This document shows, piece after piece, positions 6,510 through 33,400 of a stretch of 64,000 bases of DNA (position 1 is the stretch's first letter; every line of letters starts with the position of its first letter). A program made the position numbers and the translations under genes. Under the pieces are notes generated by a model, which was not told the DNA's origin, ran no database searches, and saw nothing but the letters and a program-made list of their open reading frames with translations. The stretch covers positions 65,933,558 through 65,997,557 of the forward strand of contig NC_092635.1 in assembly GCF_039555335.1 (NCBI RefSeq), read 5' to 3'. This DNA comes from Amphiura filiformis. Lineage: Eukaryota; Echinodermata; Ophiuroidea; Amphilepidida; Amphiuridae.

Positions 6510-6965
6510 TAAAGCCATATTATAACATTTCCAAACAAAATAGATTAGCATTTCTTTGCCATAAAATGTTAGCTTTTACTGTCAGATATATCCCATTTTA
6601 TTTTTGAGCGAACAACTAAGCCAAAGCAAAGAAAATTGGAATTTACTACCAGCGCACATGTCGCCAATACGTACCACTCCTTCGGTCATGTTATGGTACG
6701 ACCCTTTGTTGTGTATATCACCTCCCGCCCGCCGTGTGTTATGAACATCGTGTATGCGTTCGACTAATAATTCCATCGTAATAATAAAGCGCTGGTTCCG
6801 GCGTTTTATTCAAAATCTCAGATTTTGACAAAACTACAGCACCTAGAGCCTTGATTTTTGCAGGGTATATTGCTTTAATAAAGTACAATTTAATCTTGTA
6901 AAAAAAAGAATTTGAAAAATTCAGTTGAGGGCGTCCTTCTCAGCAAATGTTATAATATGGCTTTA
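6510..6965. mobile_element. TIR element, ends TTAAAGCCATATTATAACATTT
   Basis: The left end at 6510 is mirrored by AAATGTTATAATATGGCTTTAA ending at about 6966, a 20-base near-perfect inverted pair. 456 bp, non-coding. Confidence 0.75.
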
Positions 6966-7377
6966 AGATGCGTTAGCATTAATTGGTAACAAGGTCAGCC
7001 AACAAAGGAGAAAACGGTTTGAACTGTGATGTCCTCCTTGCCTAATAGTAATACACAACTGGGCGTTTTTGAGAAAACGAGACAACAGTAGCAAAATGAG
7101 TTTCTGCTCAATCAAAATTAATGGTTTCCAAAATGAAAATAATGCGCACACTGAAAACAATCAGCTAAAGTCATAGGCAGAGCTAAACTTGGACGTTACA
7201 TCTGACGTCATCTTTGAGGGCCGTCGCAAGTTTCCGCACTCAAAGGATGTGGCACATACGATCCATATCCATGTATAAGGTCAATTGGACAACCAATCAT
7301 AGCACTTCTTTTCTACTTTGAGTGTCAGGTGATGTCAGACCCAACATTCCAAGTTGATCTGTGCCGGTGACTATATT

Positions 7378-7609
7378 AGGCAAAAAAAAAAAAAAAGTTC
7401 GTCTCAAAGCTATGCGCTTGTAAAATCCCACGATTTGACAAAAAACAAATGCGAATTTTTTTAGTTTTTTCCAGAAAAAATTGGCGAAAATCTTTTTTCT
7501 CAAAATACCATGAAAAAAAGTCTGGAAAAAAAAAATTTTAAAAATCGCATTTCGCATTTGTTTTTAAATTTCTCGTGAGCTTTGAGACAAACCTTTTTAT
7601 TTTTGGCCT
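7378..7609. mobile_element. TIR MITE of the AGGCCAAA group
   Basis: Starts AGGCAAAAAAAAAA then TTCGTCTCAAAGCT; ends AGCTTTGAGACAAACC followed by TTTTTGGCCT. Shares its outer and subterminal TIR with 30754-30985. Confidence 0.75.
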
Positions 7610-7680
7610 AAGAAGAGAATAACTTTTTTACTTCTCTTCACTATTCCAGGCAAAAGTTAGGTCCAATTAATGCCTTCCAA

Positions 7681-7928
7681 CAGGCCCGTAGCCAGGGGGT
7701 GCGACGCATCCCCCTAAATTGGCAAAAGTATACAAAAAGTCTAAAAAGTTAAGAATTTGTGAGCGTAGCAAGCCAAAAATTTGATTTTTTTTGAAAGCTT
7801 TTTTGGTTAAAAAAGGTCTAAATTTGGGGAAGAAAGTCCATTTTTCACAGAATTGCCACCCCCCTTGGAAAAAAGTCCACTTTTTCAAAATCAGCACCCC
7901 CCCACAAAAAATCCTGGCTACGGGCCTG
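7681..7928. mobile_element. Repeat with inverted CAGGCCCGTAGCCAGG ends
   Basis: CAGGCCCGTAGCCAGG at 7681 and CCTGGCTACGGGCCTG at 7913-7928 are perfect inverse 16-mers. The interior has the purine-rich AAAAAGTCCACTTTTTC blocks typical of this widespread marine-invertebrate repeat. Confidence 0.8.
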
Positions 7929-8219
7929 CCTTCAAACCCTTTTTCCAAAACTGTAAAAATCAATTGGAATCTATCATAACCCATGACAATCCCAATGGAT
8001 TTCTGGATTTGCATCAAGCTGTGTTTCTGCATCCTGAATACTTTAAAGAACACTTGGGACGCATTCATTTTGCTGGACAATTTATTGCATCCATGTTGAC
8101 GCAAGAAAATTCACCAATGAATAGGTTGATTAATACGAAAGGGTATGTCTTTGTGCTCTTGTGCATGCGGTCTTGAATATTAAAATCTAAGCACTGTAAG
8201 TCCGTTTCAATGTCATATT

Positions 8220-8415
8220 GTGATGGACAGCGTTCAAATTTTGTTGTCCGGTTGCCGGGACAACTAAAAAGTCGCCGGACAACCAAAATATTGATTCGGT
8301 TGTCCGCCGGACAACCATAAATCTAGCCAAAAGTCACATTTGTAGGCCTACAGACAACCAAAAACTTAGACGGACAACCAGAAATTGTAATCTTGTTGTC
8401 CGTGGGACAACCATT
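8220..8415. repeat. Cluster of CGGACAACCA motifs and their inverses
   Basis: GGTTGTCCGCCGGACAACC and close variants (TTGTCCGGTTGCCGGGACAA, GACGGACAACC, TTGTCCGTGGGACAACC) occur at least seven times in 200 bases, alternating in orientation. No ORF. Function unknown. Confidence 0.7.
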
Positions 8416-8644
8416 TATTTTTCCTAAATTCGATCACTGGTGATGGATAATAGATATATCAAAAATGTTACTCCAGAGGAATCTATAGGCAAAATCCCAT
8501 TGTTGGATATTCACAAGTACCGATATAACCTGCATCAATGTTGCACTCAAAGAGGAAGTGAACTTATTCTGATAGTCAATATAGAAGCATCACATGCGAT
8601 GCCCCATACATACATAGGGGAAGGTGCTACACATATTTGAGATT

Positions 8645-8926
8645 CACTACCAGATCCCAATTGCTGCTACTGCCCCCAGAGGTACACTGCTGCCCAGCTA
8701 CTTCATTGGTACTCTGGAGTACCTGTGTGGGTACTCTAGAGTACACACATCAGAATCACATGTACAGTACAGACACTGGTGCTGGATTGGTACTGCACTG
8801 TTACTCTTTGAGTAGCCACAAAGTAGCCTGGATGGTGTACAGGCCAAAATGGGAGTGACCCCCCTGGGCAAAGTAGCTGGGCAGCTGTGTACCTCTGGGG
8901 TCTGTAGCAATATGAATCTGGTAGTG
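8645..8926. mobile_element. Palindromic MITE, ends CACTACCAGATT
   Basis: Arms of about 60 bases (CACTACCAGAT ... GCTGCCCAGCTACTT) are mirrored by AAGTAGCTGGGCAGC ... ATCTGGTAGTG. The centre has two short palindromes, GGTACTCTGGAGTACC and GTACTCTAGAGTAC. 282 bp. Confidence 0.85.
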
Positions 8927-8940
8927 CAGACATGATAGAC

Positions 8941-9258
8941 AATTCAACAACTCGTCCTATACCTTTGTGCCAACCATTGTTAATCTGTGATGAATCCACA
9001 CTTTTACTGTAGCGTATACACGAAAGCAAGCGAGACTACGCATTACGCGAGAGCGCATATGAATTCGTCATGCCTGGAACAATCTGTAAGTTGAATTCAG
9101 TATTTTGCAGGTAGCGGCTAAACATTGCCGTTTTATTCTGTAGTTTTACTCGCGTCCGGCATGTCTGCATGGTTTAAGCAAAGTAAACCATGCAGACGAC
9201 GCAGCCACATCATTGTTAAATGGTGATGAACAACGGTGAAACATGATTGAATCCCTAA
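8941..9258 (-). mobile_element. Transposable-element copy fused to ASAH2 exon 18
   Basis: Matches 15130-15536 in inverse orientation over its full length, sharing TTAGGGATTCAATCATG at one end, AACGGCAATGTTTAGCCGCTA in the middle and GAGTTGTTGAAT at the other end. This copy lacks about 90 bases found in the other. Non-autonomous; superfamily not determined. Confidence 0.85.
9132..9137 (-). promoter_or_regulatory. Candidate ASAH2 polyadenylation signal AATAAA
   Basis: On the minus strand AATAAA begins 9 bases after the stop codon and lies inside the repeat that supplied the protein tail. If used it gives a very short 3' UTR. The same hexamer is present in the other copy of the repeat (near 15321). 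Use is inferred. Confidence 0.45.
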
Positions 9259-9440
9259 TTAATACCTCAAATGATGAAGAAAAGCCTTCATAATGTTGTA
9301 AATTTCCATCCTTTGTCTTATAGAATCCTTGATGCCTGATGCGATAGGTCCCAAGAGGCATGTCTGATGGAATTTCAAATCGTATTGTTGCTAGACTCTG
9401 AGTAGAATCCTCTGTAACCACTTTCTTTTCCCAATAAAAT
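9146..9440 (-). CDS. ASAH2: ASAH2 exon 18: end of C-terminal domain plus transposon-derived tail
   Basis: Residues 641-738. FYWEKKVV..., IRFEIPSDMPLGTYRIRHQG and SSSFEVLI complete the immunoglobulin-like domain; vertebrate homologues end within a few residues of FEV. Here the frame continues 36 residues (RDSIMFHRC...HAGRE) to TAA at 9146-9148. Bases 9258 downwards match a repeat whose inverted copy is at 15130-15536, so the tail is captured transposon sequence. Confidence 0.93.
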
Positions 9441-12400
9441 CTATGAAGTAAACAGAGGTTAAGTCAAAGTAAAACATGGAAATTAGCATGAGAAATCCGC
9501 TCTCAACTAAATTGATATTAAGGGCATTGGCTCTAAAAATGTTAGGCCTTATTATGTAAATAAGACAATTTCATGCTCCATGACTTTCACGCTGGATCTC
9601 GGAGCTTGTTCCTTTGTTATGCTAATCCCTTTCCCTATTTTCTGTGCCCATGGTCCTTCCTATACAGGTGAATGCACATGAAAAGAGTGTATCGCACAAG
9701 TATAAAGTGCGATGTAAATATCACAATAGTAGTGTCAAGAAATGTAATGTGCATGGAATGAGAATTTACAACGACGATTTCTGAAAATATGACACAATTT
9801 GGTAAGTAGGACTTGTAAAGGATCTGTTCCTTAAATATAGTAATTTCTATTTGTATGTTGGTCCTCAGAACACAAGTGAGTGTTATAGACGAATCCGACG
9901 AGCCAAGTGATGGTCAGGATTAAGTCGGCCATAGCTGGGGGCTATCCACACCAAACTAGCTTAATTCGTTTGGATTGCGATCCAAGACATCTACTATCGC
10001 AAGCGCATCGGAGTGCATAGCAATTGTGCCGTGTTACTGGAGCGGTAAACGCTGCACGCCTATGATGCTGCCGTCACATAAAATAGATGGATGGCCCCAG
10101 CTATGGCCGCCAGTGAGGTGTAGGAATACCGTCTATACCAGGAATAGCAAATTTATACCACAAAATGAAGTAAAGTATTGTGTCACGCAAAGTGGACCAA
10201 TTTGACGAGGAGAGCGTGGATCGGGTCCTCACTTCCGTTTAATGAGGTCTCAGGTTCAATTCCTGGTGGTGGAAAACTTGCTGGGATATTGACTTGGAAA
10301 AGAAAAGTATGAATTTAATTGGCAGCATCAATAGATTATTTAGAGTGGAATAAAATGAACCATGAGAGAATACTGTCCTTCAGAGGGGCTGTTAAGCCGT
10401 CCCATGTACAGATGAGCCATACCTGCACATGTAGCTTGCAGTCAGTTTTGAGAAGAGTAGGGTGTTAACCCCTGACTGTCCTAAACCATTCCGTGTTCAA
10501 ATGGACCCCAATGGAAATAAGCTTCACAAGAGGCTTTCCTGAGTTATCCTGGGTCTGGTTGTTGAACCCGAACATGTCAATAAAAAAAAGACAAACATTA
10601 CGATGTTTCGGATTCAAATGTGAGCTTACCTTGTACTCCAATCTGCATCATTGAACACTTCTATCCACAAGTGTGTATCACCTGTATGATGTAATTCCTC
10701 CACTGATACAAATGTGCTGTCAATCTAAATATTAAACAAGAAAAGAAAGACCATTTAAATAAAAAAAATTTAATTACTCTGCAACTAATCAGTTCTTCAT
10801 CAGACTGATCAGGGATTTGATTGGCATTTAGACCATGTGATAGTAATGGGCTAAAAAGTATTCCAACATTGATTTTCACATGTGCCACAACAAGAAAACA
10901 TCCTCCTTTCTTTTTGAGCTCTACTCTTTCCTAAATGGCTTCTTTCATCCCCCATTTTGGTATCATCTCCTGCTCAACAAGGATTTAAAAATAGGATACT
11001 CAAGTTGCCACACTTTTGAAAACTCTTTTCTCAGCTTATTTAGAAATGTTTTCATCTTTTATTTATGTGACAATTTCTTACCATAGCTTTTGCATCATGT
11101 CGTGGACTACCTGCCCAGAAGGTAGCAGAAGCAACACCTCCCTGAAGAAGAAAGAGATAAAAATATGTTGAAACCAGGCAAATGTGGTCCCTAGTTTTAT
11201 CCAAAGAGGAGCTATTTGACAGGCACTGACTAAAAAATTGTGGTTTTTTTTAATGTTAACACATTCTGAATTCAATAATTTGTATCATCTATATTTTGAA
11301 ATCACAATTCTGCTGTCCCCCTGATGTTCAGCAACTGAACCACAGGTGTTTTTTCTTTCTTTCATAGGGTGGTTTTAAGCTGTGTGTGATCACAAGACCA
11401 AAAAGAGACACACATGTAGCTAGCAATGTGTTTTTGTAAGAGTGGTGCTTTCTGACATTCACTTCTGACATGATGGCTGAAGTTCTACAAGAATTAACAT
11501 ATCCAATCAAAAGCAGCAGTACACTTCTGCCAAAAAGTGTCTATTGGGAACAGTAATACTGGCCCTCATGGAAGAACAGAGGATTACTATAAGCATTATC
11601 CACTGAATAAGTAACCCAAGTTAAAGAAGAAATAAAGCAAACAAACAGTTTAACCCAAGAACTGTGAAAAAGACTAACCTGCCTATACCTACGATCCGTA
11701 TCGATATACACATCACCAATGGACACACCTTTTGGTACAGCATCTACAGATGGTGGCTCTAAGAAAGACTGCTGCTCATCCAAGTAGTTCTCTGATGGTG
11801 GCCCTGGGTCAGGGGAAGTATTGTCCACCAGGAATTCAGCTAGCATTGCGTACTGTTGTTGATAGGCTTGAAGCGTGTACTGACCAAACACGGTGGAGGC
11901 ACCTTCGTATCTTTGAATCTGAAATAAATAATCACAGCCTTTTTTTAATCTTTCTAGCCTGTGAGGGTCTTTATTAAAGTGACACAAAAAACAACATGTA
12001 TAATAACAAAAATCACAAAAAATACTACATCAGCCAGCAATGATTTTTACATAATAAACGACAAAACAATAATCAGCCTTTGCTATATTAGTAGTCAACT
12101 TAACCCTAATACATGTACTCCCAGTATTACAAAATATTACATGATAGGCCTATATGATGTGATGTGATGTGATATATATGCACGCTTTCATTAACCAAGC
12201 CAGCGAAACATCCATGGTTATACCAGTCACCAGCCTTGTGCTTGGCAAGCGAGGTGTCTCGGGTTTGAATCCCGACCAAAAAACAACAACTTCTTTGTTT
12301 TCTCTCTTTATTCCTTCTTTCCTTTCCAGTTGCCAAAAACACTAGCACTGAGCATTAGGGTTAGTATATATTGGATCTCCATATACTCTCTTAACCCTAA

Positions 12401-15400
12401 CACTCCCAGTTACAAAATACTACATGATACATGCACTGTGCATGCATGCATCTCACGTGATGTTATAATGCAATCACCGCAAGTGATATATGCATGCTTT
12501 TGTTGGCCGCACCAGCTACAATCCTCCAACCTAGTGTTTGGCACACAAGGGTCTAGGATTTGAATCCCTACCAAAACAAACAACTTCTTTGTTTGTTTCT
12601 TCTTTATTCCTTCCTTCTTTCCCTTCCAATCGCCAAAAAGCACTTTGGGCGTAAGTGTTAAAATAGCTGAATCACTGATAAGATGTCATGTGCAAAGATG
12701 TCAGTTTTTAGTGTATCAAACAAATCCTGTTGCAAGTTTTCTATAGATTTGTAAAGAATGTATTGGGTAACATAGTCCTTAAAATTGGCATCCTGGCTTT
12801 TTACTTGTTTAAAAATAGCTAACGTCGCCCTCTGCTGATGGAATAAAACAATATAAAGTGTGATCTGTATTCTTGCTTGGCGAATCACATGTCTTGACTT
12901 GACATGTTAGGTACGCAAAGTTTATAGCAAACTATTTCTTGTCTTTCTGCCAAATTCATAATAATATATGTGAAAAAACATAACAGGATTACAGATACTT
13001 GATAAACTCTTCAACAAAATTTTGGAAAGTTTTTTCAAGCATCTGTATCTCAAATTATTTATGACATATTCATATCGTTTTGCATATCAATGGATAGCTA
13101 CAATACTCCCCTTTACAATGACACCCCATTTGACCAGTGGTTTTTCCATTTGCTGTTGAGGTTAGTGGCTAGCGTTGTTTGGGCACAGAATAATGGTCAA
13201 TTTGGCAAATTCTGTTTGAGACCCCACTACATTTACAAGGCGTGTACTCAGCTGTGAAAAATGTTATTGTTTCAAACGGGGTGTCATTGTAAAGGGGAGT
13301 ATTGTAGCTATCCATTGATATGCAACACGATATGAATATGTCACAAATAATTTGAGATACAGATGCTTGAAAAAACTTTCCAAACTTTTGTTGAGGAGTT
13401 TATATGACACAAGGAAAATAAATGAGGCTGATACCTCAGAAATAGGTCTACACACACATGAAGGTGTTACTTTTTCAGATAATATAATCTATAGTGATTT
13501 GAAACTATTTTTCCACCTTGAAAGAAAGGGGGGGTCAGATTTGAATATTTTGAAAGTGGCAAGCATCACAAACTTCACTATAATTTGGTTCACCTCAAGT
13601 TTGGTAGTGACGTATGTGCGTATTTCGTTGGCCTAAGCAGTGAATCGCGCGTGTCAAGTTAATCACGCAAAGTGTACACTCACTCGCACAAGAGCGATTT
13701 GTCGGAACGCTTGCGGCGCAATCGTGAAAAAGCATTGACGTCACTACTGAACTTGAAGTGAACCAAATTATAAAATACACTTTATGGTTAGTTTTATTAC
13801 AACAACAGTCGAGCATAATGAAAGCAATATCAAGGTATGAGTTCTTGAAGTTTCCACTCATCATGCATATGTTGGCTGGAAATTTCTTTTTTCAATACAC
13901 CCCTACTTACTTGATATTCTTCAAATGTTGTGACATAATCAGTATATACATTGGCTAAACCAGTCAGTACTGGAACAACATTCATCACTCCATTTTGTCG
14001 GAATACCTGCCAATACGAATCAATAAAAAAAAAATCTAAAATATAATGATGCAATTATTAAAGAAAATACATAACCTCATGATCATGCGATCCAATCATT
14101 TTTATTTATTTGCCAAAATGCAGACGCTAAACGCAGTTACAGTCAACAGTGGACATCAGCATAAATATTAGTAACCTCTGCACGAAGCATTCGGTTCACT
14201 ACATCATCGATCAGTTAAGACATAACCATCAAAATTGATATAGCATTTATTTATTTTATTTTTTTATGATAAGGATTAGGCATAGTAACCAAAGTCACTC
14301 ACATCTCTAACAGAATCCCTCAACCTTCTTCCAGCCATGGTCCTGTATTATACAAGAATAAACATTTGAAACTCAATGATTTCAGATAAATACAATGTAC
14401 ACCTCATGATTCAAAGTGCCATCCAAAGTTTGAAGAGTCCCTGATGGTATTGAGGAAAAGTGAATTTCAGTGGGGGCTCTGATGGGGAAAAGCCTGAAGT
14501 GTGTGTGTGTGTGGGGGGGTGTCCCTATAGGCCCTACTGGTACCCTCTCCCGTATGTCCCATGGTGCTGCAACTAAATGTTGCTGACACTAAAATAATAA
14601 AATAATCATCAAGTTTATCATACTTTTTTTTAAGTTGAGAGTAATACTATTTGTGTATTTCACAGTGGCAGTTTTGAATTGTTTCGTATTATACACACAA
14701 AAAATCCGCCATTTTAGTCCACGGTTAGGCGATGAAAACATCATACACACGTCCTCGGTTAGATAGCAAAACACAATGTCCACATTTGGAGGCAAACACA
14801 GACAGGGGTGTGTGTGTGTGGGGGGGGTGTCCCTATAGGCCCTACTGGTACCCTCTCCCGTATGTCCCATGGTGCTGCAACTAAATGTTGCTGACACTAA
14901 AATAATAAAATATTCATCAAGTTTATCATACTTTTTTTAAAGTTGAGAGTAATACCATTTGTGTATTTCACAGTGGCAGTTTTGAATTGTTTGCGCTAAC
15001 CTAAGCCCACAGCATATACACACAGAAGGGTGGCTTGTCTGCACGTTGGCAACACACCCCCACTGACGACACTCTCAACTTGAGATGAGACAAGGTATAG
15101 TGCAGGTCGTCAAATGCCTGCAGATTCTTTTAGGGATTCAATCATGTTTCACCGTTGTTCATCAGCGTTTAACAACAATGCGGCCGCGTCGTCTGTGTGG
15201 TTTACTTCGCTCGGGCAGCTTTAGCTGCCCTCGCGAATCAGGGACTTGTTTTCACTCGAACATCATCAACCGGAAGTGACGTGACACGGACCGACAGAAT
15301 ATCAGCAATAAAACTAAGAATAAAACGGCAATGTTTAGCCGCTACCTGAAAAATACTGAATTCAACTTGTAAGCTGGCATACGCACAAAGGTTCCAGGCA

Positions 15401-18400
15401 TGACGAATTTTACGGCGCTCTCGCGAACGCGTAGTCTCGCTCGCGTTCGCGTATAAGCTACCGTAAAAGTGTGGGTTCATCACGGTTTAACAACGGTTGG
15501 CTCCTGTACAAAGGTATATAGGAAGAGTTGTTGAATATAATTTTAATCACAAAATGTTGATGTAAATGACTTACGTGAATTCACCCGGTACTAAGTTAAT
15601 AGCCAGTTGACCGATTCGTAAGATTTGTGTTTGTACTACGGCAGGGGCCCAAGTCCAAGGTGTAAACATCTGAAAAAAATTCACAAAACTAAACTTGTGA
15701 TCAAATATTTTATAATAAGGCCAAAAAAAAAATTGTTCGTTTGTCCACGTCCCACCGACCGTGTACACTGGTCCCGGCCGCTTTTTTTTTTTTTTTTTTT
15801 TTTAAATTTGCGTTGAATGTGCTAGTAAAACAGTGGTTACTATAAATTTAAAGAAAGAACACGTAAAGAAAATGAACAGTATAACATGCAGAACCATCTC
15901 AAGAGTTAAACCAGTACTGTGTGTTTTGACTTTTTCAAATTGTCGGTTTCAAGTGCAATATCTGTAAAAAAAAAAAAATGCGACCTACCGACCCAACTGT
16001 TTCATAAGCCTCTATGGACAAACAAACAATTTTTTTTGGCCTAATAATAGATATGATCATTGTGCACTTGAGACCAAAGAAAGATTGAAGTATTTGAGGG
16101 CCAATTAAAGGTGTGTGATCCTAGCATTCTCTTTTTATGTTATATTTCAGTAGATATCCGCAAAAAAACTTCTTCCAAATATTTCAGTTGATTTTGATTT
16201 TGCGTTTGCGAGTTATGGATGATTATGTGTATTACACTGCTCCATAGATAGGCCACTGTTGTAATTTCATTCTGGTACACCAGAACATAATTTTAAACTA
16301 TTTCAGTGGCTAGCACTGCTTTCCAAGCATGCCCTCATGCATTAAGTAAAATGATATTTACCAGATTCATACAGAATGTTTACAAAATAACATATTTACA
16401 AGAGTATACAAAAACAAAGACAGTTAAAGTTGTTTTTTTAAAACTTCCGTGGTCGGGGTACGCGCTGGTGAATTGCGATCGCGTAAAAGTGACAAGGTCG
16501 CCTACTACGCGCCGAACAGACAACCAATGGGTCAACGGACTTGTTGTCAAGTGCGTTGATCAGCCAATCGGCGTGATTGCTTATTTTTTCTGTGTGTACG
16601 CTCGTAGACGCTTGGCGCACAGCTCGGACCACAGAAGTTTAAAAAAATTAACTTTAATCAAGATCTGCTTTGATACAAGAGCAAACAAGAGTACAGCGAT
16701 TTCACATATTTAACATATAACGTGATATTCTGCTTAAAATTAGCATTGGCATCAAAAATTGCAGTCTCTCAAATAGCAACTTACCTCTCCAGTTGGCAAG
16801 AGTACAGGCTTAGGTGCTTGACATTGAATTAATTCATCACTTGGTTTCTTTATCAAATCTCTAATAGCATCCCATAAGTCATTGCCTGTTGTGTCACCTG
16901 CGATATGAAAAGAAAATATTATTTTGTATTAGTATTATCATACAGTGGGAAGCGGCTGTGAAAAGGAAAGCATCTTGGTCATTTGGAAGGGATAAAGTTT
17001 GGTCATTGAGAACTTAATCCAACTTGAGTATTAGCTGAATGAGAGAAAGGAAAAATATATACACATTATTTTATTTGAATCAATGAAAATTTTAACACTA
17101 AAATCAATAATATATACATTTATATATGTGACCCATCACATCAAAACCAACCACCTCGAGGCAGAAATGAAAATTGAGATTTGTGACGTGTCATGTCAAA
17201 AGGAGACACTTTTGGGCAGGATCGTAAATGGAGAAATAGCCAAAAATCTGCCCGGTGATTTTTTTTTTTTCACAATTTGGGTTTGTTGCGAATTTGTGAT
17301 GCTATTAATATTTAAAATATTGTCTGAGAGTTTCAGACCGGAATATAACTGGCATCTTGTATTTTTTGAGACATTTTTCAAAGCTAATTCCTACTCTCAA
17401 CATTGTCAATAATATTTTTAAAGGCCGATATCTCAATTTCCAATTTTATAATACCATAACTTACGAACTCAATATCTTTGCTTAGGATTGTCCGATTCCA
17501 TTGGGAAAACCGGCGTTGTGGAGCAAAATATCTCTTTATTTAAGATATGTAAAAAGCTCAAAATTGATAACCTGCCCAAAAGTGTCTCCTTTTGACATGA
17601 CACGTCACATTTAAACACCAGGATAAACCGCTGTTTTTTAGCTTTAAAATGACACCTTATGTTGAAATCAGATACAGTGAAAATGTTTTATGCGGCAAAA
17701 CAACCTCAAAATTCTTTTTATTTTCTTCATATTTTCTCATCTTCTTCATTGTTATCTGCCAAAGAAGCCAGCCACGAAGTGGACAGTTTTGATGTGATGG
17801 GTCACATATGTTGTAATGTTACAAGCAAAATTTCTTGCCCCCCTCAATTTACTCTCCCACCAGGACTCATAATTATTGCACAGTCCCTATCAAAATGCAC
17901 TCACTGGTTTAGGATTGCCGAAACTGAATGGAAAACGTGAGTTTTTTCTTGGAATTTGTACTATGAAAACTTTGATATCTGATAACTGTATTCCTGATGA
18001 ATCTCTTCAATAACTCACTGGTTTAATAAAATGAGGAAACAGAGAAAGGGCAGTCCAGGTACTTCACAAAAAGAATAGACTACCCCGTAGTCCACTTGCC
18101 CATTCTGCATATACTCTGGATATTGTATTTAAGCTTAAAACTCTGATTTAATTTATGTGTGCACAATTGATAGATTTTCACATCTGATCTTTTCAGTCAC
18201 CATACACCCTCTGTTTGTTAGCTCCCCAAGTGGACTACTGACATTGGATTGCGGTCAGAGATGCTTAACACGGCTGTCTATGAGCTTCTATGGATGAGAT
18301 TGTCGGAAATCTGGCCTACTAAAATTGGCAATGATGTAATGCATCTTTAAATGGATCTGGGTTGTGATTGGTCGCCCAGATCTCGTTATGGTTTAAATCC

Positions 18401-21400
18401 TCCGGGTACCTATCATTACCATTAATAACTACATGGTACACAAGTATGCCGCCATTGTGATGTGTAATTGCATGAACGCGTCAATATGTGCATGAGCGCG
18501 TATTGTATTTGCTTGCGGTTAAATTTGATTGATAAACAAGTATGATTGACAGTGTGAGTGTTAGGGACTTTGCCGGCTCAAAATCCCGTTTTAAATTGAA
18601 AGTCCATAGTCTATTTTTAACCTGGAATTTCGCGATTAATAAACTGGCAGATTTTAAAATCAGAATTGTTCAGTGAAGTGCCAATACAATCATGACATTA
18701 TGATATGTTGCATTCAATAATATAAGCCTACGTACACTTGACTTTTACTGTCACTAATATAATTATATAAACTTTTTCATAACAATTTTATACTAGTATA
18801 TATTTTGATGTAATAAATATCAGTATAATTTCGAGTTCAACTGAATGCTTTCATCATGATTAACATTAATAACATGCTTTTATTTATCAAAAATAGACTA
18901 TGGCATAATCTACAAAAAGAACGGAAAGTCGCAACAATATTTTTATTATAATGGGAATGTTACAGCACTCTGCATGGTTTGAATAATTGCAACAATGATT
19001 TTAAAAAATTTGTAAGAAATTTTTCCACAATTTTCAAACTAACCTTGGTAAAAATCAAAGAATCCTGCTCCATCAATGCAACCTGCTGCAAATGAATAAC
19101 CCATGGCTGCTGCACAGGTGTACGCCTACATGACAATTACAAAACAAGAACATCAAACATGCACGCCACACAAAAAAACTTACCCTGGAAAAAAGTGAAT
19201 TCACCCGGACCATCAACGGTACCTGCTGCAAAGGAATAGCCCATTGCTGCAGCACAGGTATATGTCTGAATATGAGGGGAAGTGGAATTTGAAAAAACAA
19301 TGATGAATCAATTTGTACCGCATTTAACTTGAGAATCAAACAAACAAATTGACTGCTCAGTGCCAGAAGTGGGTAAGTGCAATAGCTGCCCTGTGAACAT
19401 TTGGCAATTTACACACTTCGCACATACACACAGCCTTATTAGAAATAATAAAAATCAGGAAATAAGATGGTTGCACACTGTCTTTCTTTTGTCAATTTCG
19501 TCATTTTTTGACATACTTTTTAAATTATAATACAACGAAGTTTTTGCTCTCAATGAGAGAAGACACAACTTATTTTGCTCTGAGTTTGCTGTCTTTGTTT
19601 GCTACTTATTTCAATTTGAACTTGCCTTCAATTTTTGACTTGAATTTGTTTTTAAACTACAGCATGTAGTTCTTGTTGTTTGCTTTATATTTTGTTGTCT
19701 GTCCCTGAAGAAGAGCAGTTTATCTGCTTGAAACGTCAGTTGTTTTTTGTCTGTTTAGTGTTTGACTGCTATGTACACAGTGATTTTCATCACTTCCAGT
19801 GTACTGTTTTCCTGACACTTTTGTGGGCTCTGGAATTGGCAGTTTTTGGCCATCGAACTTTGCCTGTTTTGTGCCTACTCTGGATGTTTGGTTTAGCGTG
19901 TCTGTTTATATGCACAGTGATTTTCATCACTTGTTCTAGTGCAGTTTTGTATTACCATTGATCCTTGTTGTTTTTGCAGGTTCAGCACTTACTTCTGTGG
20001 GCCTTGGAAATGGTAATTTTTGGCTATCGAACTTTGCCTACTTCTTCTGCCTAAGTTTGCTGTTTTTGTCCCCCTGCATACTGTCTAGTCTGCATTTTAC
20101 TTGTTTCCCCACATCAAGTTGGTGTACCTTGCTTTTTTTCTTTCCTATAATACAACGAGTATTTAAAAAATACTTACTGTATATGTTTCATTTATTTTTA
20201 CTGGATAATGAGTCATGTTGGCATTTTGGTAAACGGATCCAACAGGCCCAGCAACTTCTGTAGTCGCACTGTTATATAATTCCTGAATGTGGATGATAAA
20301 ACAAATTGAGTGCTTGAATTGTTAATTTAAATAATTTACATAAAAATGATTAAACAATAAGCAGAATTTAAAAATATGTTCACATAATGTACATTGGCAC
20401 TGTTTATGATCCCAATGTTTAAGCTATTCGTATCCTCACCCAATGAATGATCTTTCCAGGGCCGTAGTAAGGTTGAAAAATGTGGGGCGGCCATCACAAA
20501 TATGGGGCGGCCAAATTACAAATATATGACCAAATTGAAATAAAGATATAAAGAAAGACATAACAAATTTCTCAAAAGGTGGGGCGGCCATGGCATCCCC
20601 GGCCACCCCGCTTGCTACTGCCCTGAATCTTTCCATATATTTAGTGTTATATCTCACACCAAAAGATCCCATTTTAAATTGCTAGTTGCACATCACTTCA
20701 AAAGTTGAGTGTACCTGGTCTATTACCATTTGGTCTAATACCATTTGGTCTAATTGCCGTTTAGTCAATTCAATTGTTCTATTACCAGAAAGGCTAATTG
20801 CCTCTTAGTCTATAAATCATTTAGTCTAATGTCCATTTAGTCTAATATTGTTTGGTCTAATAACCAAAATGTCTACTAACCATACAGTCTAATAACCATT
20901 TGGTCTAATATTTTTGAAATAATCATTTGGTCTAATAACCATTTGGTCTAAAAACTGTAAGGTCCAATACCTGTATGGTCTAATAACCAATTTGTCTAAT
21001 ACCATTTTGTATATTTGCCAATTTGTCTAAAAAATTGGCATTTCGTCTACTACTGGTTATGGGCTATAATGTATCAAAAAAATATGAATTTATAGTAGAC
21101 TGAATCGGGTCACATATAGGCCTAATATTTATAAGTTAATGAACGCGTTGAATGTTGATGCGTCTAATGCACGAGCCCTGAAGGGGGGAGTGCATTAGAC
21201 TCATCAACATCAGCGCAAGTGCATTATTTTGTCTAATTTCTCGAGCAATAAGTAATACAAGTTTATTAATCTATTTCATACACGAGAAGAAAAAACATGT
21301 GGTTTTTACTTTTTTTTTATATAACAAATTATCACTAAAATGTTGGAAAACAGAACCAAATATAAATCCATCAACCCGCCCGAAAAATGAATCAATCCTA

Positions 21401-24400
21401 CGCACAATATACACAATCAATGCATGTTTCGTACTTTTCTAACAGCTTTTCTGATTGGCTGCTTTGATATAAGAGTGTATGAAAGGCTCATCATGCATCA
21501 CTGGGGTGTCACGGGTGCAGGACATGCGCTATCTGCCATTCCAACATTAAAACACAATGAGGGTTTCCGGTTTTTGTCAGTCATGTGTAGATAATACATG
21601 TATAGACCTGTTACACTGTTTATGAAACCCCGAGAGCAGAGGCCATGGTGACCCCGGACTATGACCTCATAGTATGTATAGTAGCGTTATTGCCCATATG
21701 CAGCCTCACATGTGCTATTAGACCAATCGGTTTGTAGACCAATTGGTTAGTAGACTAAATGCTTGTTAGACTAATGGGTATTAGACCAAATGGCTATTAG
21801 ACTTATTGGTTATAGATCAAATGGGTATCAGACTAAATGGTTGTTAGACTAAATGGTTTGACTTATTGGTTATTAGACTAAATGGTTATCAGACCAAATG
21901 GTTCTCGGACCAAATGGTTATAGGACTAAATGATTATTGGACATAGTGGATATAGACCTAATATAGACCTTAAAAACACATCTGTTTAATATCGCTTTTG
22001 CTGATGACTTGTAGTGTAGAATGTTTTTTATGGTATGTTGTATATTATCTGTATTTGCTCTGTTCATCATGTTCCCCTTTGTGGTCATATTCCTGTTGTT
22101 GCGCAGTGAGCGGCTCTGACGGATACTTGCGCATTATAAATTTCCATATTATTATTATTATTATTATTAATGGGTTTAGATGAAATGGATGTAGACGAAA
22201 TGGATATTCGACGAAATGTTATTAGACCAAATGACAAATCCCTGTGTGCCCATACCCTCCTTTTTTAGTGTCAAATTGGTCACTGAAAGGCAAATTTGGA
22301 ATTGTTGAGTCTACATCCTGTTATCCCCCTCCCCTGCCCCCTCCATAACATATTTCATTTTCCAACTTCCAACATACCTTAGCTTTGACATACTGGTTTT
22401 CTCCTATGATACGTGTGCTGTCAAACATATCTTCACCTGGCCCAAATGCTATACACAACTGAGCCTGCATAAAAACAAATGCACAATATCAAAAGCTAAA
22501 ATTATAACAAAAACAATCCAGTACACAAACTATAGGATATCTGCACATATCATATCAACACATAAATACCATGAAATTTATGTAAAAACTAAATCATAGG
22601 CAAGAAAGCAGAAAGGAAAGAGAAACAAGTATAGTAAATAATCTTTTAACTGGGCTCTAAAAGCACAACCAGAAATGACAAGCGAACATTTCACACAGGT
22701 ATACTTATGTGTCTGTGAGACTTGTGTGACTTTTCTTGTGTATGTGTCTTTTTGACACAACTGACACGCATGAAGGACATCTTGTGTGTCTTTTTTTTTT
22801 CCATCTTGTGTCTTTTTTTTTGCTTGTGTGCCTTTTTCAATACCTTAAATGGCCTCTTTACCCCCTCTATACCCCCTCCGAAAGACCCTGGTTCTGTGCC
22901 TAGACACACAAGAAAACAATGACACACAAGCATATTTTGTACACAAAAAACAGGCATGAAAATGGCTTTTTTGACAAATGCCTGAAAAAGGGTGTTAATT
23001 CAGCCTTAAAAAGGCCCAAAAACAGGCTAAAAAGAAATAAAAATGCATAAATTTGGACAACAAAACTGTCAGAATTGAGGCAAAAGCCTGAAAATTCACA
23101 TGCCTGAAAAAAAAAAGACACACAAGCATAGCGTCATGAGAACAGACAGACAGAAAAAAAAGAAGACAAACATTCCATAAAGACTTACCCTATCATTACA
23201 AGTGCTAGTTTGATATCTACATGGTCCTCCTGTATCAATACATCTTGGTCCTGCTGTATTGGGGCTGGTATCACCATGATTAGCATTGGCAAATATGGCA
23301 ACAAAATCACCCTGCAAAATCACAGCAGAATAAAAAGTACAAAAATTAACAGACCTACTGGTATCTAGACAGCGCAGTGACATACAGATAATTAAAGGAA
23401 TTCAATAATATACCGAGGGGTCAGTGACACAAAGACTTAACTCCATTTTTTGCGAAAATGAGATTTTGGTATCAAAATTTTCAGAAACATGAGCACTTTC
23501 CAATAAACACATAGAGGTAACTTCATTCAGCACCCATTGAAATCAATGGCCAGTGAAACATAGGACTTAACTACAGTCAATATGGATCATTATGTTTAAA
23601 CTCATTTTTCTCAGAATGGCCAAAATGGAGTTACATCTTTGTGCCACTGACCCTTGATATATCATAATGCATATTGTTCCTCTGTACAAGAAATATTTTT
23701 AGTTCATCATATTTATATTTTCAACTTCCAAAGTTTATAATTTTGACTCTTGCATCACATAAATAACCATCGCCATTTTAAGGAGGAAAACAAAGAGAGT
23801 CACACTGAGTGTGCTTTTTAAAACTTGGTGTATTCAAGACAGAAGATATGCTCTCTACACCCCATTACATGGTAAAAGAAGACCTGCAAGGCACAGAACA
23901 TCCTTCTTGTCTGATGTGCAAAAACTGCCAGGACAACATTTTACTGCCAGATGCCATTACCACCTTGGCTTCAAATCGTAGTACATGAAGAAACTTTGTA
24001 GTCGCCTGGTTCACAGCCTAATGAAATGAATGAATGTATTAAAGGTGATTTGCTCATTGAAAGGATCATAAAAATCACCATAATTAAGGTTTTGGCCTCT
24101 TTGTAACTGTCATAGATGTGCTAACATAGCCTGCTAGTGGTTTAGCTGAAAGCCACGTATTAAAGACAATAGAAGACATTTACATGAATCTGTAATTTAA
24201 GAGTAGAGACATTTAGCTACATGTATATGAATGGGCTTCAACTTTGTCAAGTCAAGACAGAGTAGTTCAATTAAAACTTAGTCATGTTTTTAAAATTTTC
24301 CATAATTGTTGTCCTGAATATATGAAAATGCATTTTACTAAAGTATCATCTCTTCATAATTACAGTACCAGGGGAAGTCCATTCAACTTTAAGGTTCCTC

Positions 24401-27400
24401 ACTCCAAGGGACAAAATAGCTTCACTTTCTTTAATAGTGCAATTCATCATTGGAACTCACTGCCAAATGAAATCAAGAACATCAATGATTTTAAATTGTA
24501 CAAACAATCTGTCAAACAGTTTTTAGCTGATCAAGGGTCCATTTGATTTTTAGAATTTGAGCTGGTCTCACATATCTGCTTTTTGCGTCCTTTGTGCACG
24601 TTGTCTCTGTTTTTGTTTTTGTATGGCAGTTTGTTCCTATATTTTCTCTTGCTTGTAAAGGACCCCAATGGAAATAAGCTTTTCCCAAGGCTTTTTGGGC
24701 TATCCTTGGTACTTGTGTTGATTTGTAATTTCGTTATACAATTTTGATGTGCAATTTATTTTATTTTGTTATAATAATACTGTATATGTAGTGTAATTTG
24801 TATGTTATTCTTATAGTACCAAATAAAATATACTGCTGTTTTCTCCCTTTTTTGCCAAAATATACAATTTGAATGACTTATCCTTCACTTTTACTCAATT
24901 TATATACAATTAATTTTTTTTTTACACATAGCTTCCCACTTGAGCTCACTTGGGTATATCATTGAAAGAAGTGCAACATTCCTTTTCGTATAGCATACCT
25001 ATTGAAGATGCATGAAGTCCTCGGTTTATGAAGCTATCGATATCGATTGTGTTTTCTCCTTGCGATCACTTCATGCATCTTTACTTTGCTGTGTCTCGTC
25101 TCAAGTTGAGAGTAATGCCATGTTGGATTTCGTAATGGCAGATTCAAATTGCTTGCGCTAACCTAATCCCGTGGGGTGTACACACACGGTAGAAGGACAA
25201 TTTGTTGGCAACGCAACCACGTAAACGCACTGATTCAAGACTGCCACTATAAAAACCAAAATGGCATTACTCTAAACTTGAGATGAGACACAGTATAGCA
25301 TACATACCTAATAGTAGAATTTTCTTATAGTCCATAAACCAGTATATCTGTGGACGTTTCGGTGTCTACCAGATGCCTTTTTCTACACTATTGTTTTTGA
25401 GACGATCTTCTGTTTACCATTGATACTGATGGTTGCTTAGTGTTTGACAATCTTCATGGAAATAGAACTGGCAAACACGTTGCTAAGCAACCATCAGCAT
25501 TTAGTGGTAAACAGAAGATCGTCACAACAAAAAGAGTGCAGAAAAAGGTGTCTGGTAGACACCAAAACTTCCACAGTGAATACTGTTTTTTGGACTAGAA
25601 ATAAGAAAATTCTACTATTATGTTTCATAACAGTCCCGATGAACATTTCAGTAAAGCATACATACCTGTCCCATAGGTGCTCCATCATTCATATCTTGCT
25701 CAAATAAATAAGAAGCATAACCTTTATTGTCGCTACTGATGAGGTGATTGGAGTTGTTCATACTAACAGGGTGTACAGCATACCAACTGCATGGATAAAG
25801 AGAGTACAAGTTAGACTGGTTAAACTGAATCTCCAGAATACCTTTCAAACCGGTGGTGTACCCAGGACTTATCCAGAGGAGGGGAAGATTATGACAAACA
25901 CAAGTTAATGCTATCTTTTGAAGATAGCTATAGATTATGTCAAACACAAGTTCATGCTATCTATTGAAGATAGCTATAGATTATGTCAAACACAAGTTAA
26001 TGCTATCTACTGAAGATAGCTATAGATTATTTTAAACACAAGTTCATGCTATCTACTGAAGATAGCTATAGATTATGTCAAACACAAGTTAATGCTATCT
26101 ACTGAAGATAGCTATAGATTATGTCAAACACAAGTTAATGCTATCTACTGAAGATAGCTATAGATTATGTCAAACACAAGTTAATGCTATCTACTGAAGA
26201 TAGCTATAGATCATGTCAAACACAAGTTAATGCTATCTACTGAAGATAGCTATAGATTATGTCAAACACAAGTTCATGCTATATACTGAAGATAGTTATA
26301 GATTATGTCAAACACAAGTTAATGCTATCTACTGAAGATAGCTATAGATTATGTCAAACACAAGTTAATGCTAGCTACTGAAGATAGCTATAGATTATTT
26401 CAAACACAAGTTAATGCTATCTACTGATGATATCTATAGATTATTTCAAACACAAGTTCATGCTATCTACTAAAGATAGCAATAGATTATTTAAAACACA
26501 AGTTAATGCTATCTACTGAAGATAGCTATAGATTATGTCAAACACAAGTTAATGCTATCTACTGAAGATAGCTATAGATTAGGTCAAACACAAGTTAATG
26601 CTATCTACTGAAGATAGCTATAGATTATGTCAAACACAAGTTAATGAACAGGAAACCTGATAAGCAAAAGAATGACAGAAAAGCAGAATGCAAAGTATTG
26701 AACCACGATCGAAACAATCACCACACAAAGTATATGGCACTCGAAGGCATACCAAAATAGCGTGATCCGGTAACCAAGAGAATTACGTAACCACTTCGAT
26801 GGCGAATAGTATCTCACCATCCCAGGGGGCTTTAATGCGATCAGAAAATCTCATTCATCCTTTTAATAAACCAATTTTAAATGCAGTTGTTAAACTTGAC
26901 ATACTTGAACCTACCTTATAAGTGCAATATCTGTACCATCTTCACCGACAAATTTGGCAATGGTCATATCTTTGTCAGTGTCATAGTCATACCTGAAGAA
27001 AAGAATTCATACCACAAAAAATCAAAAATATTCATTACGTTTCACTACCTAGAATGAAAAAATAATTAGCTATTACCTAGAATGAATATTAAAATGTTAT
27101 TTTAATACAATTGAATTGGATTGAATTGAATTGAACTACCTGGAGAGAATTGATCAAAAATTGAATTCCCTCTGAGGTTCGTATCTGTCATTGAGTTGAC
27201 CAGATCACAAGGATGTCATTATAGCTAGAGGCAGTATATAACACAAATGGGTCAATGAGTTACATAGGGATGACCTTGTGTGGTATATGGTTCCCAGGAA
27301 ATAAGTTTTGCCTGAGGCAATTTTGGTTAAATGTTGATCCCTCACTACAAGAGTTATTACCATCGATTTGGTTGAAAAATGAGGTGAGACATGATTCAAT

Positions 27401-30400
27401 CTCTCCAGGTAATGAAACGTAATGTTAGAAATAATTCCCTCCAAGTAAAACCCATTTCTGCTGAGTTATTACTACTTGCATTCACTTGCAAACACGAATT
27501 CAGTTTAAAATCTGAAAAGTGGTATCTCTGCACATATATAAATTTGGTATGAAACAGTTTACAAAGAATAAAATCACTGTTAATAAACTGGCCTCAAAAA
27601 GAAACTTATAATTTTTCACAAGGTCATATCTTACAATCCTCTCCATAAAAATGAACAAAAATTGCACACAGGATTACTTCAATACTCTACTCTAAACACT
27701 GGTCAGTAACCAAACAGTTGTCCAACTGACACAACAGCAAAATGCACTGACACGGAACAGCTTCCTGGACCACATTCACAGTTCAATAATTGGCACCCAG
27801 CAAAAGAAATCTGTGAGAATGAGTACAAGATCCTTGCACATGTGATAATTCCCAAAGAGTAAGTGGAATAGTGTGGAACAAGACCTGTTTCTTTAAGAAA
27901 GTGTGTGAAAAGAAAAAAGCAGCTGTGCCAGGATCTTGTATGCATACTCACAGATTTTTTGTGCTGGGTGCCAAATGTTGGGCTGTAAAAGTGGTCCAGG
28001 AAACTGTTCCATGTCTGTTGTGTCAGTTGGACAACTGCTTGGTTACTGACATGTGTTTTGAGTAGAGTATTGAAGTAATCCTGGGAGTAATTTTGGTTCA
28101 TTTTGATTGACAGGATTTTAAGATATGACCTTGTGATTCACAAGTTGTGAAAGTTTCTTTTTGAGCTCAGTTTATATAAATTTGGTATGAAACCAGTTTA
28201 CAAATTTAAGAATAAAATTACTGTTAATATGTTACATATTTTTGAGACCCCCTGTATTTTGTTGTTTCGCATACTTACCTTCGTCTTTCAGATGAAGGAT
28301 TGTTCATGTAAGCAGGAGGACTGCGGTTGATGCTGGTATCCAGTAGTTCCCCTTCATTTAAGTAAACATAGCCCTCTTTCTTGTTGTTGTGAGCTCTCTC
28401 TATACTCTGCACAAAACAAAACAAAACTGATATTACACACAAAAAAAAAAAAATTGGGCTAAAACTAAAAAAATGTTCTGGGGATTTTCTCTAAAACTAA
28501 ATTTTACCTCACAGGATTCATCAAGTCTTTGCCATTGTAAATATGTATACTTTTATATACCTTAGACCAAAAAGTTTGCATTTATGAGGCCCAAAAGTGT
28601 CCAAACTTCCAGGGTTAAGACCACTGAACAGATTTTCATTCTTTCTACCCTGATGTTACATTTTTTTGCAAGCAGTAGTCTGCCATTTCATATACTGCGC
28701 CAATAAAGTATCCTTACACTTAGAAAAATAATCACAATTTCCAAACTGAACAATATTGGGGTAAATTAGTTTTTTTAATAGATGCACTATTTAATAATGA
28801 ACATTATGACCCCACATTGAATACAAAAAAAAAACAAAAAGCAAAGTTACAAGCATTTGATTAGACGAAGGTCCAGTTTTAAAAGTGACACTGGCCTATT
28901 CAAAACTCCAGACTAGACATCTGGTTTGAGAGCGGTGAATGGCTAATTTATGCGTTTGGCTTTATTTTAAAACAAAAGGAACAAAAGAAAACCTAAACAA
29001 AAGAACTGACAAATAAAATGGAAGTTATGAAAAGTACAGAGAAGCAAAAACTGAAATAAAAACTGCTTTAAATAACGCTTCATTGAAGAAACTGTGTTGT
29101 CTCTTTGTTTCGCTTGTTGGAATCTTTTTGCGCCTTGTATAGACCAGTTTGTCACTTTTAAAACGGGAACTTTGTCTATTCAATTGCTTGTAACTATACT
29201 TCATGAGGTCACATTGGATTCAATGTGGTGTCATAATGTGCAGGATTAGATAGTGCATCTATTAAAAAACAAATTTACCCCAATATTGTTCAGTTTGGAA
29301 ATTGTGATTATTTTTCCAAGTGTAAGGATACTTTATTGGCGCAGTATAGTTATGTTCCTGATTTTAACTTACCCTGACAACCCCTTCTACAAGGATATCA
29401 AAACTATCATCCTGGAATCCACTTGTTGTGAAGCTAAATAAGAAGAACTGATGATAACCACCGGGCCCTGAGTGTGTGTGTGTGGCACTAATTGCTGTGT
29501 TCTTTTCATTGTACAACTCACCTAAGCCTCTGTCTCTTAACATTTCAAACACCTAAAAGAAACAAACAGACAAACAAAGTGAGAAAATATGACATATTAT
29601 ATATTATTTTTCATTAAATGTAGGATCTGCAGATTATCTGAGGAGGCTGTAGGATACCTTGTCCAGTATGCTAACCCTTGGACATTATTCAGAAAAAGTC
29701 AAATTCACTTAGGCCACAAAAAGAAAATTGTTTGATTGGCGTAACATAAAATAAAAATTAAGGTAGGTAGGTCGGGATCTTTTTCTACTTTTAAAGCTGT
29801 AAATTGTGTTTGATAAAGGCCTTGGAACTTTTTTCTTGCTTTTTTTTTAATTTAATAAATAAATTAATAAATTAACAATTTTTTTTTCCAGGGTCAGGCC
29901 TAATTTTAGGGTCGGTCAGTTGGGTTACACCAATCAAACAATTTTCTTTTTGTGGCCTTATTGGCTTGCATGGTCTACTCCTGATTCCAGAAAAATACAG
30001 CAGTTTTTGCCAAATGAAACATAGCTAAATCCTAATCCTTTAGTTTTAACTGGCAATAAAAGTAAAATTTTAATAATTTTTCAATTTGAGGAAAAATGGG
30101 CCAAAATTCTTACAATTGCGGCCACAAAATTCTAGATCTTGAGTATAGGCCAAGAGTTCGCTCATAATTTTCATATTTTACGTTATTTTTGCTAATTGGT
30201 TATGAAAAAGATTAAAAAAATGTGTCTTTGTACAAGTTTATGGCTTGATTGTCATAGCATACAAAATTGTCCTTAATGGCCGGCCCTTATTTCCAAAAAT
30301 TGACCAAAAATTTAAATTTGATTTTCATTGCCAGATGGAACGACCTAAAATATTAGGATTTAGCTATATTCATTAGGCAAAACAGGATAATATTTTTTAA

Positions 30401-33400
30401 TCCTAATTTTTTTTTTTTCTGGTATAGGGAGTAGTTTATGGGTTATTCCATTTAAAATCCACACTACCCCTGTGGAAGATTTAGCTAAAGTCTTGCACAG
30501 ATGGAGTATGAGTTTTGAATACAAATAGACAATTGGGTAACTTTCATTTAAAATACTCACTCCAGTTGTGCAAGATATATATAAAGCCATAATACAGGGG
30601 AATATGGGTTTCAAAATGATTAACTCTGACCAATTACATTTGAAAAACATACTACTTAGATATTTCCAAAAAACTTCCACAGGGGTAGTGTGGATTTCAA
30701 CTGGATATGTGATTCAGTTTAAGTGTGATTCCAAAACTTCAAAGTACTTTAATAGGCCAAAAAAATAAAGGTTTGTCTCAAATCTCACAAGTGGTTTGAA
30801 AACAAATGTGAAACACAATTTTTTTTTTAATTCACGACTTGGTATGTTTATGGTATTTTGAGAAAAAAAATCTGATTTTCACCAAATTTTTCCCCCCAAA
30901 ATGATTTTTTTTTAAATAAAAAAATTTCAACATTTCTTTTTTTCAAATCGCGAGCTTTGAGACAAACCTTTTTTAAATTTGGCCTTACCTTAATATTAAT
31001 AGCAGAAGCACCTGTGGCGATATCCATGTTAACAAACACATTACAATTACTCTCATCTAGTTCACATGTTATGATGGTTCTGCTGTATAAGCGTAGATGA
31101 ATACCACCTGCATATTGGTCTGGTTTTGCATACCCCATCTGGAAAAAAATGGGAATATGGTAAATATTGAGAAAATTGATTTTGTTCAAACTTTACTTAT
31201 GTGACCAAATCTGATCCACTCAGGCTGAAGTAAATAATTTTGAAAATTGAGTTACTATTTATAATAGAGAAGCCACATTGGTTTATCTATTCAATACAAT
31301 ACAATACAATACAATACAATACAACCAAGCATTTATATAGCACCCTCCCAAGGACCACAGCGCTTTCCGAAAAAGAATAGATATAAAAATAATATAAATA
31401 CAAAATACAATGGCATTCAACATATTTTAATATGTTGAATGCCATTGTATTGTTCTGAAAATTGTTTAAAAACAATTTCCAGAACAAATCTGCTCTATTT
31501 AAGATTTTCGTGCAACATTTTAAACAAAGGTGCCAGCCGGGTTTTTGAATAACCTGGCTGGCATTTCTGAAAAGTGATGTTAGCTGAGATATTTGGGTTA
31601 AAAATATGTTTTTCCATTCTTTTACCAAAAATGTCAATTACTAAAACAGGTATAACTGTACATACATGTAAATAAAGTATGAACTTCATATTTGCTGTGG
31701 AGAATATATATCACATGTTTATTCAATATTCATTAACAAAAAAATTTCATCTTTATATCTTGATGCAATATTTTGAATGAAATGTGTTATTTTGATGATT
31801 TTGTTTAATTTAGTTTAATTCAATTTATCTGATATGTGACACAATCTGGTCCATGGGGGCCAAAGGCGTCAAATTTGAAACTGAGATAAAGGTAAAAATA
31901 TGGAGTAAAAAACAATAAAATATATAAGAAAATACACATCAAAAAACTTCATAACTTTAGAACCAAGTATGCTAGGCCTTTGGTGTTTTCAGTAAATGAT
32001 AGCCTATTGCAAGTATAATGTAATAATTATAGTAACTCAATTTTCAAAAATGCCTCCTTTGGCCCCCATGGACCAGATCGTGTCACATATAGGGTAAGGT
32101 AAAGATGAGGCTGCTGTTTTAAATAAAATACATTCTATGAATATTCTATGGCATAATATACGAAAATATCTTCGGTTGAGAGCCCCGAATTAGAATACGA
32201 GGGTCATTCAAAAAGTTCTACCTGTTGGGTCATAACATTTGTTTTGTTAAAGGTAGCTACTTGAAAATTTGCATACATATAGTTCGTAATATCACCTACA
32301 GGTGGTGAAAAAATCATGTCAAGACCATTTTCAGATTTTTGTTGGTGACCTGAAAAACACAGTAAGATATGGTAAACAGGAAACGGTGACGCATCTTTGG
32401 ATATTGCACTTGAAAACATGCGTGCAGCCAATGTATGAACTTCCCTCTTTAAACAAAAAACTCATATTAGTAACAATATAAATTTTGAATGACTATACAC
32501 CTTACAGTCCAAAACATCATCTGTGACTGAAAAAGTAAAATTTTGATGGACAGAAATTACCCAGAATTCCAATTTTTAGAGGGATATCTTGTAACATCTC
32601 TGGTATTGATAATCAGCATAGTGTACATTCCTACAGCGTGACTTTTCTAGCTGCGCTTTTAGATCAAATATAAAAGTTAGAGCTACTATAACACATTTTT
32701 CAGTCAAAAAAGTAAATTTAATTACCTTTGTGATCTATTGTGGTATTTTATTCCAAAGAAAGCAAAATAATGCCACTATTTTACACCATGTTTTATTAAA
32801 GTCAATATCTTCATAAACCGTGTTTGTGGTCATTTATACTAATTTTATTACACTGGCTATTTGTTGTATTAGTTTTGTGCATATTAATGTCCATCATTTT
32901 CAGTTTGTGGCAACCGTTTAACCAGTACATATAAATTTATGATTATTCTTGTTTTATACAGGTTTTACTGTATAACATGACCAAATGGAATAATTATGGG
33001 ATCTTCAACACACTTTACTTGAGACGCCTTTGTAAATATTGTACATATTTTGATCGTTTCCGGTGAACCATATCTTACTGTGGTTTTCAGGTCACCAACA
33101 AAAATCTGAGAATGGTCTTGACATGAATTTTTCACCACCTGTAGGTGACATTACGAACTATATGTATACAAATTTTCAAGTAGCTACCTTTAACAAAACA
33201 AAAGTTATGAACCAACAGGTAGAACTTTTTGAATGACCCTCGTATATTGATGTACAGTGTGGGCCAAAAACAACTTTACCCAATTAAAAAGGTTCATATC
33301 TCAAAATTGAAAAGTCTGCTTCAAATTGTTTTCACATATTCGTAAAGAACATCTTCCCAAGAGTATTTGGTGAAAAACTATCCAAAAATGTATTAAATTA

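Follow-up and report, generated by a model that had tools for sequence, protein, structure and literature searches.

A neutral ceramidase gene of the brittle star Amphiura filiformis very probably contains a pair of tandem-duplicated, mutually exclusive alternative exons, here named 10A and 10B. Mutual exclusion is most likely enforced by the reading frame, and the short intron between the two copies probably adds to it. The brittle star and a sea urchin, Lytechinus pictus, both probably make two ceramidase forms.

Neutral ceramidase converts ceramide to sphingosine, and both lipids act in signalling. The gene was modelled on the minus strand of the window, which is the whole stretch of 64,000 nucleotides that was analysed, as follows:

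6377..37125, minus strand, neutral ceramidase coding span with 19 coding exons, 10A and 10B counted as one
36997-37125, minus strand, ceramidase exon 1 of the joined model
11082-11141, minus strand, ceramidase exon 16 of the joined model
10630-10724, 9266-9440 and 6377-6445, minus strand, ceramidase exons after exon 16 of the joined model

The 19 window exons, joined with copy A, encode 721 residues and equal the NCBI protein P0001 ('putative neutral ceramidase C [Amphiura filiformis]') throughout. P0001 matched the Pfam families PF04734 (682.8 bits) and PF17048 (134.3 bits), both above the cut-off. Over its first 609 residues, isoform A matched the structure of human neutral ceramidase 4wgk (E 3.3e-184) as well as the structure 2zws (E 3.1e-103), which we take to be the Pseudomonas neutral ceramidase.

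Several repeats lie in the introns of this gene. Within intron 5, at 25886-26646, a 46-bp unit is repeated 16.5 times in tandem (94% matches), and two arrays of 16-bp units, at 20716-21007 (TGGTCTAATAACCATT) and 21716-21942 (TATTAGACTAAATGGT), are located between exons 8 and 9 and by eye resemble an inverted pair. In intron 1, an open reading frame on the minus strand (33738-34076) scored 22.0 bits for the helix-turn-helix family DUF4817, just below the cut-off of 22.6, and is perhaps a transposon fragment. Elsewhere in the window, two arrays with a period of 107 bp (1-1031 and 42663-43257) have units that by eye are alike and in opposite orientation. Exons of a second gene were found on the minus strand at 47715-60600, where two of four open reading frames tried matched Peptidase_M24; the order of its motifs resembles that of methionine aminopeptidase 1.

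The exon pair and its neighbours, all on the minus strand, are arranged as follows in the order of transcription:

20178..20282, minus strand, exon 9, 105 nt, ending in phase 0 (joined model P0001)
19184..19265, minus strand, exon 10A, 82 nt, phase 0 to 1, TYTCAAAMGYSFAAGTVDGPGEFTFFQ, the copy used in the NCBI model
19126..19183, minus strand, intron between 10A and 10B, 58 nt, GTAAGT...TAG
19044..19125, minus strand, exon 10B, 82 nt, phase 0 to 1, AYTCAAAMGYSFAAGCIDGAGFFDFYQ
16785..16897, minus strand, exon 11, 113 nt, starting in phase 1

An earlier note had described two homologous 82-base exons separated by 58 bases, with GT/AG borders, the phases given above and 20/27 identical residues, and all of this was confirmed on the minus strand. 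The copies share 60/82 bases and 20/27 residues, and their differences fall 6/4/12 on the first, second and third codon positions. The flanking introns have no clear similarity (16/40 bases upstream, 17/40 downstream). As in a tandem-duplicated pair, the two exons are thus adjacent, homologous, equal in length (82/82 nt) and of the same phase. When P0001 was searched against the window with tblastn (E ≤5), only exon 10 found a significant second place; one further extra match had an E value of 1.5. Neither a further copy of exon 10 nor a significant second copy of any other exon was detected in the window at this threshold, in a search that may overlook very short exons.

Joining either copy alone to its neighbours keeps the frame open for 721 residues up to the stop codon, and the full B form equals the A form except for seven residues. 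Joining of 10A to 10B leads to a stop at codon 412, skipping of both leads to a stop at codon 382, and retention of the 58-nt intron likewise introduces a stop. Joint inclusion or joint skipping therefore yields no full-length protein, and the claim of the earlier note that exactly one copy is needed was borne out. A transcript with both copies or neither is useless because the frame alone breaks; such transcripts would be removed by nonsense-mediated decay.

The intron between the copies could provide a second barrier. With 58 nt it is the shortest of the 19 introns measured, the next one (296 nt) being over five times longer, and it may be too short for both of its ends to be bound together, which would block joining of A to B. 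Measured from the 5' splice site, the candidate branch-point adenosines lie at 24, 31, 46 and 47 nt, and A31 is the sole match to yUnAy. Since none of these distances exceeds 47 nt, and a steric limit of about 50 nt between 5' splice site and branch point is described for vertebrate genes in the available text of PMC7969005 and PMC5740500, steric blocking is plausible, as far as predicted branch points and a vertebrate limit can be applied to an echinoderm gene.

The same intron contains a possible regulatory element:

19158..19163, minus strand, UGCAUG, RBFOX-type motif within the 58-nt intron

This hexamer occurs in about 2% of 58-nt stretches of the same strand, and its count in the whole window (49) equals the chance expectation. 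RBFOX proteins steer exon choice through UGCAUG in Caenorhabditis elegans, where one such motif, in the egl-15 intron that precedes exon 5B, represses 5B (PMC3585155, available text). An RBFOX protein bound to the Amphiura motif could favour A over B, which is a guess. A mechanism based on RNA structure was unsupported: no special fold was detected over both exons, the 311-nt segment across 10A and 10B being no stabler than its shuffles (z = +1.03, 85 of 100 shuffles at least as stable).

The arrangement of the exons would also be compatible with B being unused, a relic left by tandem duplication, with only A ever spliced in. NCBI gives one protein for the Amphiura gene (P0001, a cluster of one without isoform label), and it uses A. 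Among the matches listed in the protein searches there was no B transcript from Amphiura or any other brittle star. The state of copy B argues against such a relic. Over the 27 codons of the pair, the NG86 method gave dN 0.197 and dS 1.225, with values of 0.03 and 0.92 for the first 15 codons and 0.45 and 2.4 for the last 12. The duplication is therefore not recent, and the protein sequence has been held, most strongly in the first half of the exon. When 50 out of 120 listed protein matches were aligned, nine exon-10 positions were invariant (T370, C371, G376, S378, G382, D385, G386, F392 and Q394), and 10B retains 9/9. Two hundred thousand random copies of exon A (200,000), each with 22 substitutions, served for comparison: 61% remained open, 0.07% kept all nine residues and 0.016% had ≤7 residue changes, whereas the combination of all three features, which is the state of B, was found in 0/200,000.

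The splice sites of B are intact as well. They were scored with a matrix built from the other exons of the gene, a small set of 15 donors and 14 acceptors. The 10B donor scored 10.3 (other exons 4.3-13.1, n=15) and its acceptor 8.8 (other exons -5.5 to 14.0, n=14); 10A, with 12.2 and 3.0, is also within the range of the other exons. A suspected weakness of the B splice sites was not borne out: only the B donor is weaker than that of A (10.3 vs 12.2), whereas the B acceptor is better (8.8 vs 3.0). Both copies are thus intact and under selection (dN 0.197, dS 1.23; 9/9).

Further evidence came from the sea urchin L. pictus. Its proteins P0003 and P0004 do not differ at all in 131 residues upstream and 174 residues downstream of the exon-10 segment, and differ in 8/27 residues within it, so that over 332 residues the differences are confined to the borders of the Amphiura exon. 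The P0003 version, GCTDGTGFFTF, resembles Amphiura B (GCIDGAGFFDF), and the P0004 version, GTIDGPGFFTF, resembles Amphiura A. P0003, with 694 residues, is full-length; it carries the label 'isoform X1' and belongs to a cluster of four sequences. The gene model behind P0004 is of poor quality near the N-terminus, includes an internal repeat and shows a gap close to the C-terminus. A region search with P0003 yielded three candidates, and the matches were P0003 and P0004 only. The two proteins are most simply read as products of exon choice in a single gene. Since proteins alone were compared and the P0004 model is faulty elsewhere, it is possible that the two are encoded by separate loci.

The occurrence of a B-like exon in an L. 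pictus protein and the purifying selection on B led us to reject the relic as the main explanation, and we consider it improbable. They also run counter to the suggestion, raised in the earlier note as a way in which its proposal could fail, that 10B is species-specific and decaying. A different role for the pair would be that of a poison device, in which inclusion of A+B or double skipping lowers ceramidase output and the B protein is incidental. The early stops of both-in and neither-in transcripts would suit such a device. A pure poison exon does not need a constrained protein sequence such as that of B, however, and the L. pictus B form is full-length; this role is therefore highly improbable. 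Mutually exclusive use of two coding exons remains the preferred reading, with A as the presumably commoner form and B as a form that would be restricted to certain tissues or stages.

The residues exchanged by the switch were compared across the family. A and B have YTCAAAMGYSFAAG in common; the exchanged residues of the exon are 1, 16, 17, 20, 22, 24 and 26, that is, the first residue and six of the last twelve. The exon-10 segment aligns with the human and Pseudomonas enzymes and is therefore part of the core, not a lineage-specific insert; its human counterpart, numbered by alignment, comprises residues 445-471, with the threonine at 460. The corresponding position in Amphiura, T383, was surveyed in 240 proteins listed, of which 207 had a readable motif and 33 without a match were dropped. 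Among these 207, 203 had Thr, two had Ala (P0007 from a sea cucumber, and P0010) and two had Cys (P0003 and the metagenome ceramidase fragment P0179). Amphiura B also has Cys, which is therefore present in the B-like form of both Amphiura and L. pictus. A search for fragments, which started from three aligned pieces of 160 residues, gave 476 candidates and 184 proteins, and among the best 120 of the 184, P0179 was the only match listed with a readable motif that had Cys at the T383 site. Against the Amphiura piece, none of the matches listed (best 120 of 184) exceeded 62%. The absence of a brittle star B transcript from the protein searches weighs little, because Amphiura fragments were seemingly not among the searched sequences. 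The nearest relative among the matches listed was P0002 (71% identity), which is of A type and, going by its similarity, is taken to come from an ophiuroid.

Seven changes in a deeply aligned segment, including the replacement of a near-invariant Thr by Cys, suggest that the swap would probably adjust activity or substrate and leave the enzyme functional. If a single gene exchanges one core segment in this way, it would amount to a natural mutagenesis experiment on the amidase domain and would show splicing setting sphingolipid metabolism in echinoderms. The exchange of Thr for Cys falls on a near-invariant site and is simple to assay directly in the enzyme.

The pairs of the brittle star and the sea urchin, whose common ancestor lived several hundred million years ago, may go back to one duplication or to two. 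In BLAST comparisons each L. pictus form scored best with the Amphiura exon of its own type: the B form gave 40.4 bits against Amphiura B and 34.7 against A, and the A form 42.7 bits against Amphiura A and 40.8 against B. This result and the Cys common to both species at a near-invariant Thr speak against two independent duplications of the same exon that converged on Cys. The identities between A and B within a species (20/27 in Amphiura, 19/27 in L. pictus) are, on the other hand, as high as those between same-type exons of the two species (19/27 for A, 17/27 for B), and both Amphiura copies read AA at 372-373, a place at which KP is found in most of the aligned relatives; both observations favour independent duplications. 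Four specified trees over 11 exon peptides of 27 residues each were then compared. A tree with separate duplications was the best of the four (p-AU 0.84) and a second variant of separate duplications was rejected (0.03), whereas neither the tree with a shared duplication (p-AU 0.30) nor the tree with L. pictus B outside (p-AU 0.33) was rejected. Trees over 27 residues have little resolution, and separate duplications are favoured without significance. We regard independent duplications as having slightly less than an even chance. A single exon duplication in the ancestor of brittle star and sea urchin, kept since then as a mutually exclusive switch between a Thr-form and a Cys-form ceramidase and hence as two enzymes, is put forward tentatively. 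If it is true, the Thr and Cys enzymes of one gene would differ in activity, in metal or redox sensitivity or in ceramide preference.

The pair would be a new case in neutral ceramidase; mutually exclusive exon pairs are well known as a class. The earlier note knew of no description of such exons for this family, and in agreement with this, no report of them was found in open-access full text, PMC5773612 included. The brittle star genome paper (PMC11310086) does not use the word 'ceramidase' in its main text, and neither 'ASAH' nor 'ceramidase' occurs in that of the study of human mutually exclusive exon clusters (PMC5740500). Exons 4a and 4b of OGDH (PMC7969005, available text) resemble the Amphiura pair in being mutually exclusive and in belonging to a metabolic enzyme, but they are from another gene and another phylum. 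The human clusters (PMC5740500, available text) resemble it in the similar sequence and length and the same frame of their exons. The OGDH study mapped branch points and demonstrated both isoforms, and the human clusters were validated by splice-junction reads, whereas the Amphiura pair is known from sequence. In C. elegans, exons 7a and 7b of unc-32 are mutually exclusive and UGCAUG and RBFOX proteins steer the choice; there the motif is in intron 7b, which its name places downstream of both exons, whereas the putative site of Amphiura lies between the copies (PMC3585155, available text). The closest case within the gene family is isoform 2 of human ASAH2, which according to the available text of PMC6952831 is without residues 410-444 (35 residues). 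These residues align with Amphiura exon 9, likewise 35 residues long and just upstream of exon 10. Alternative splicing would thus affect adjoining parts of the same enzyme in the two species, but the human isoform arises by the loss of 35 residues (PMC6952831), whereas the Amphiura gene would offer a choice between two copies.
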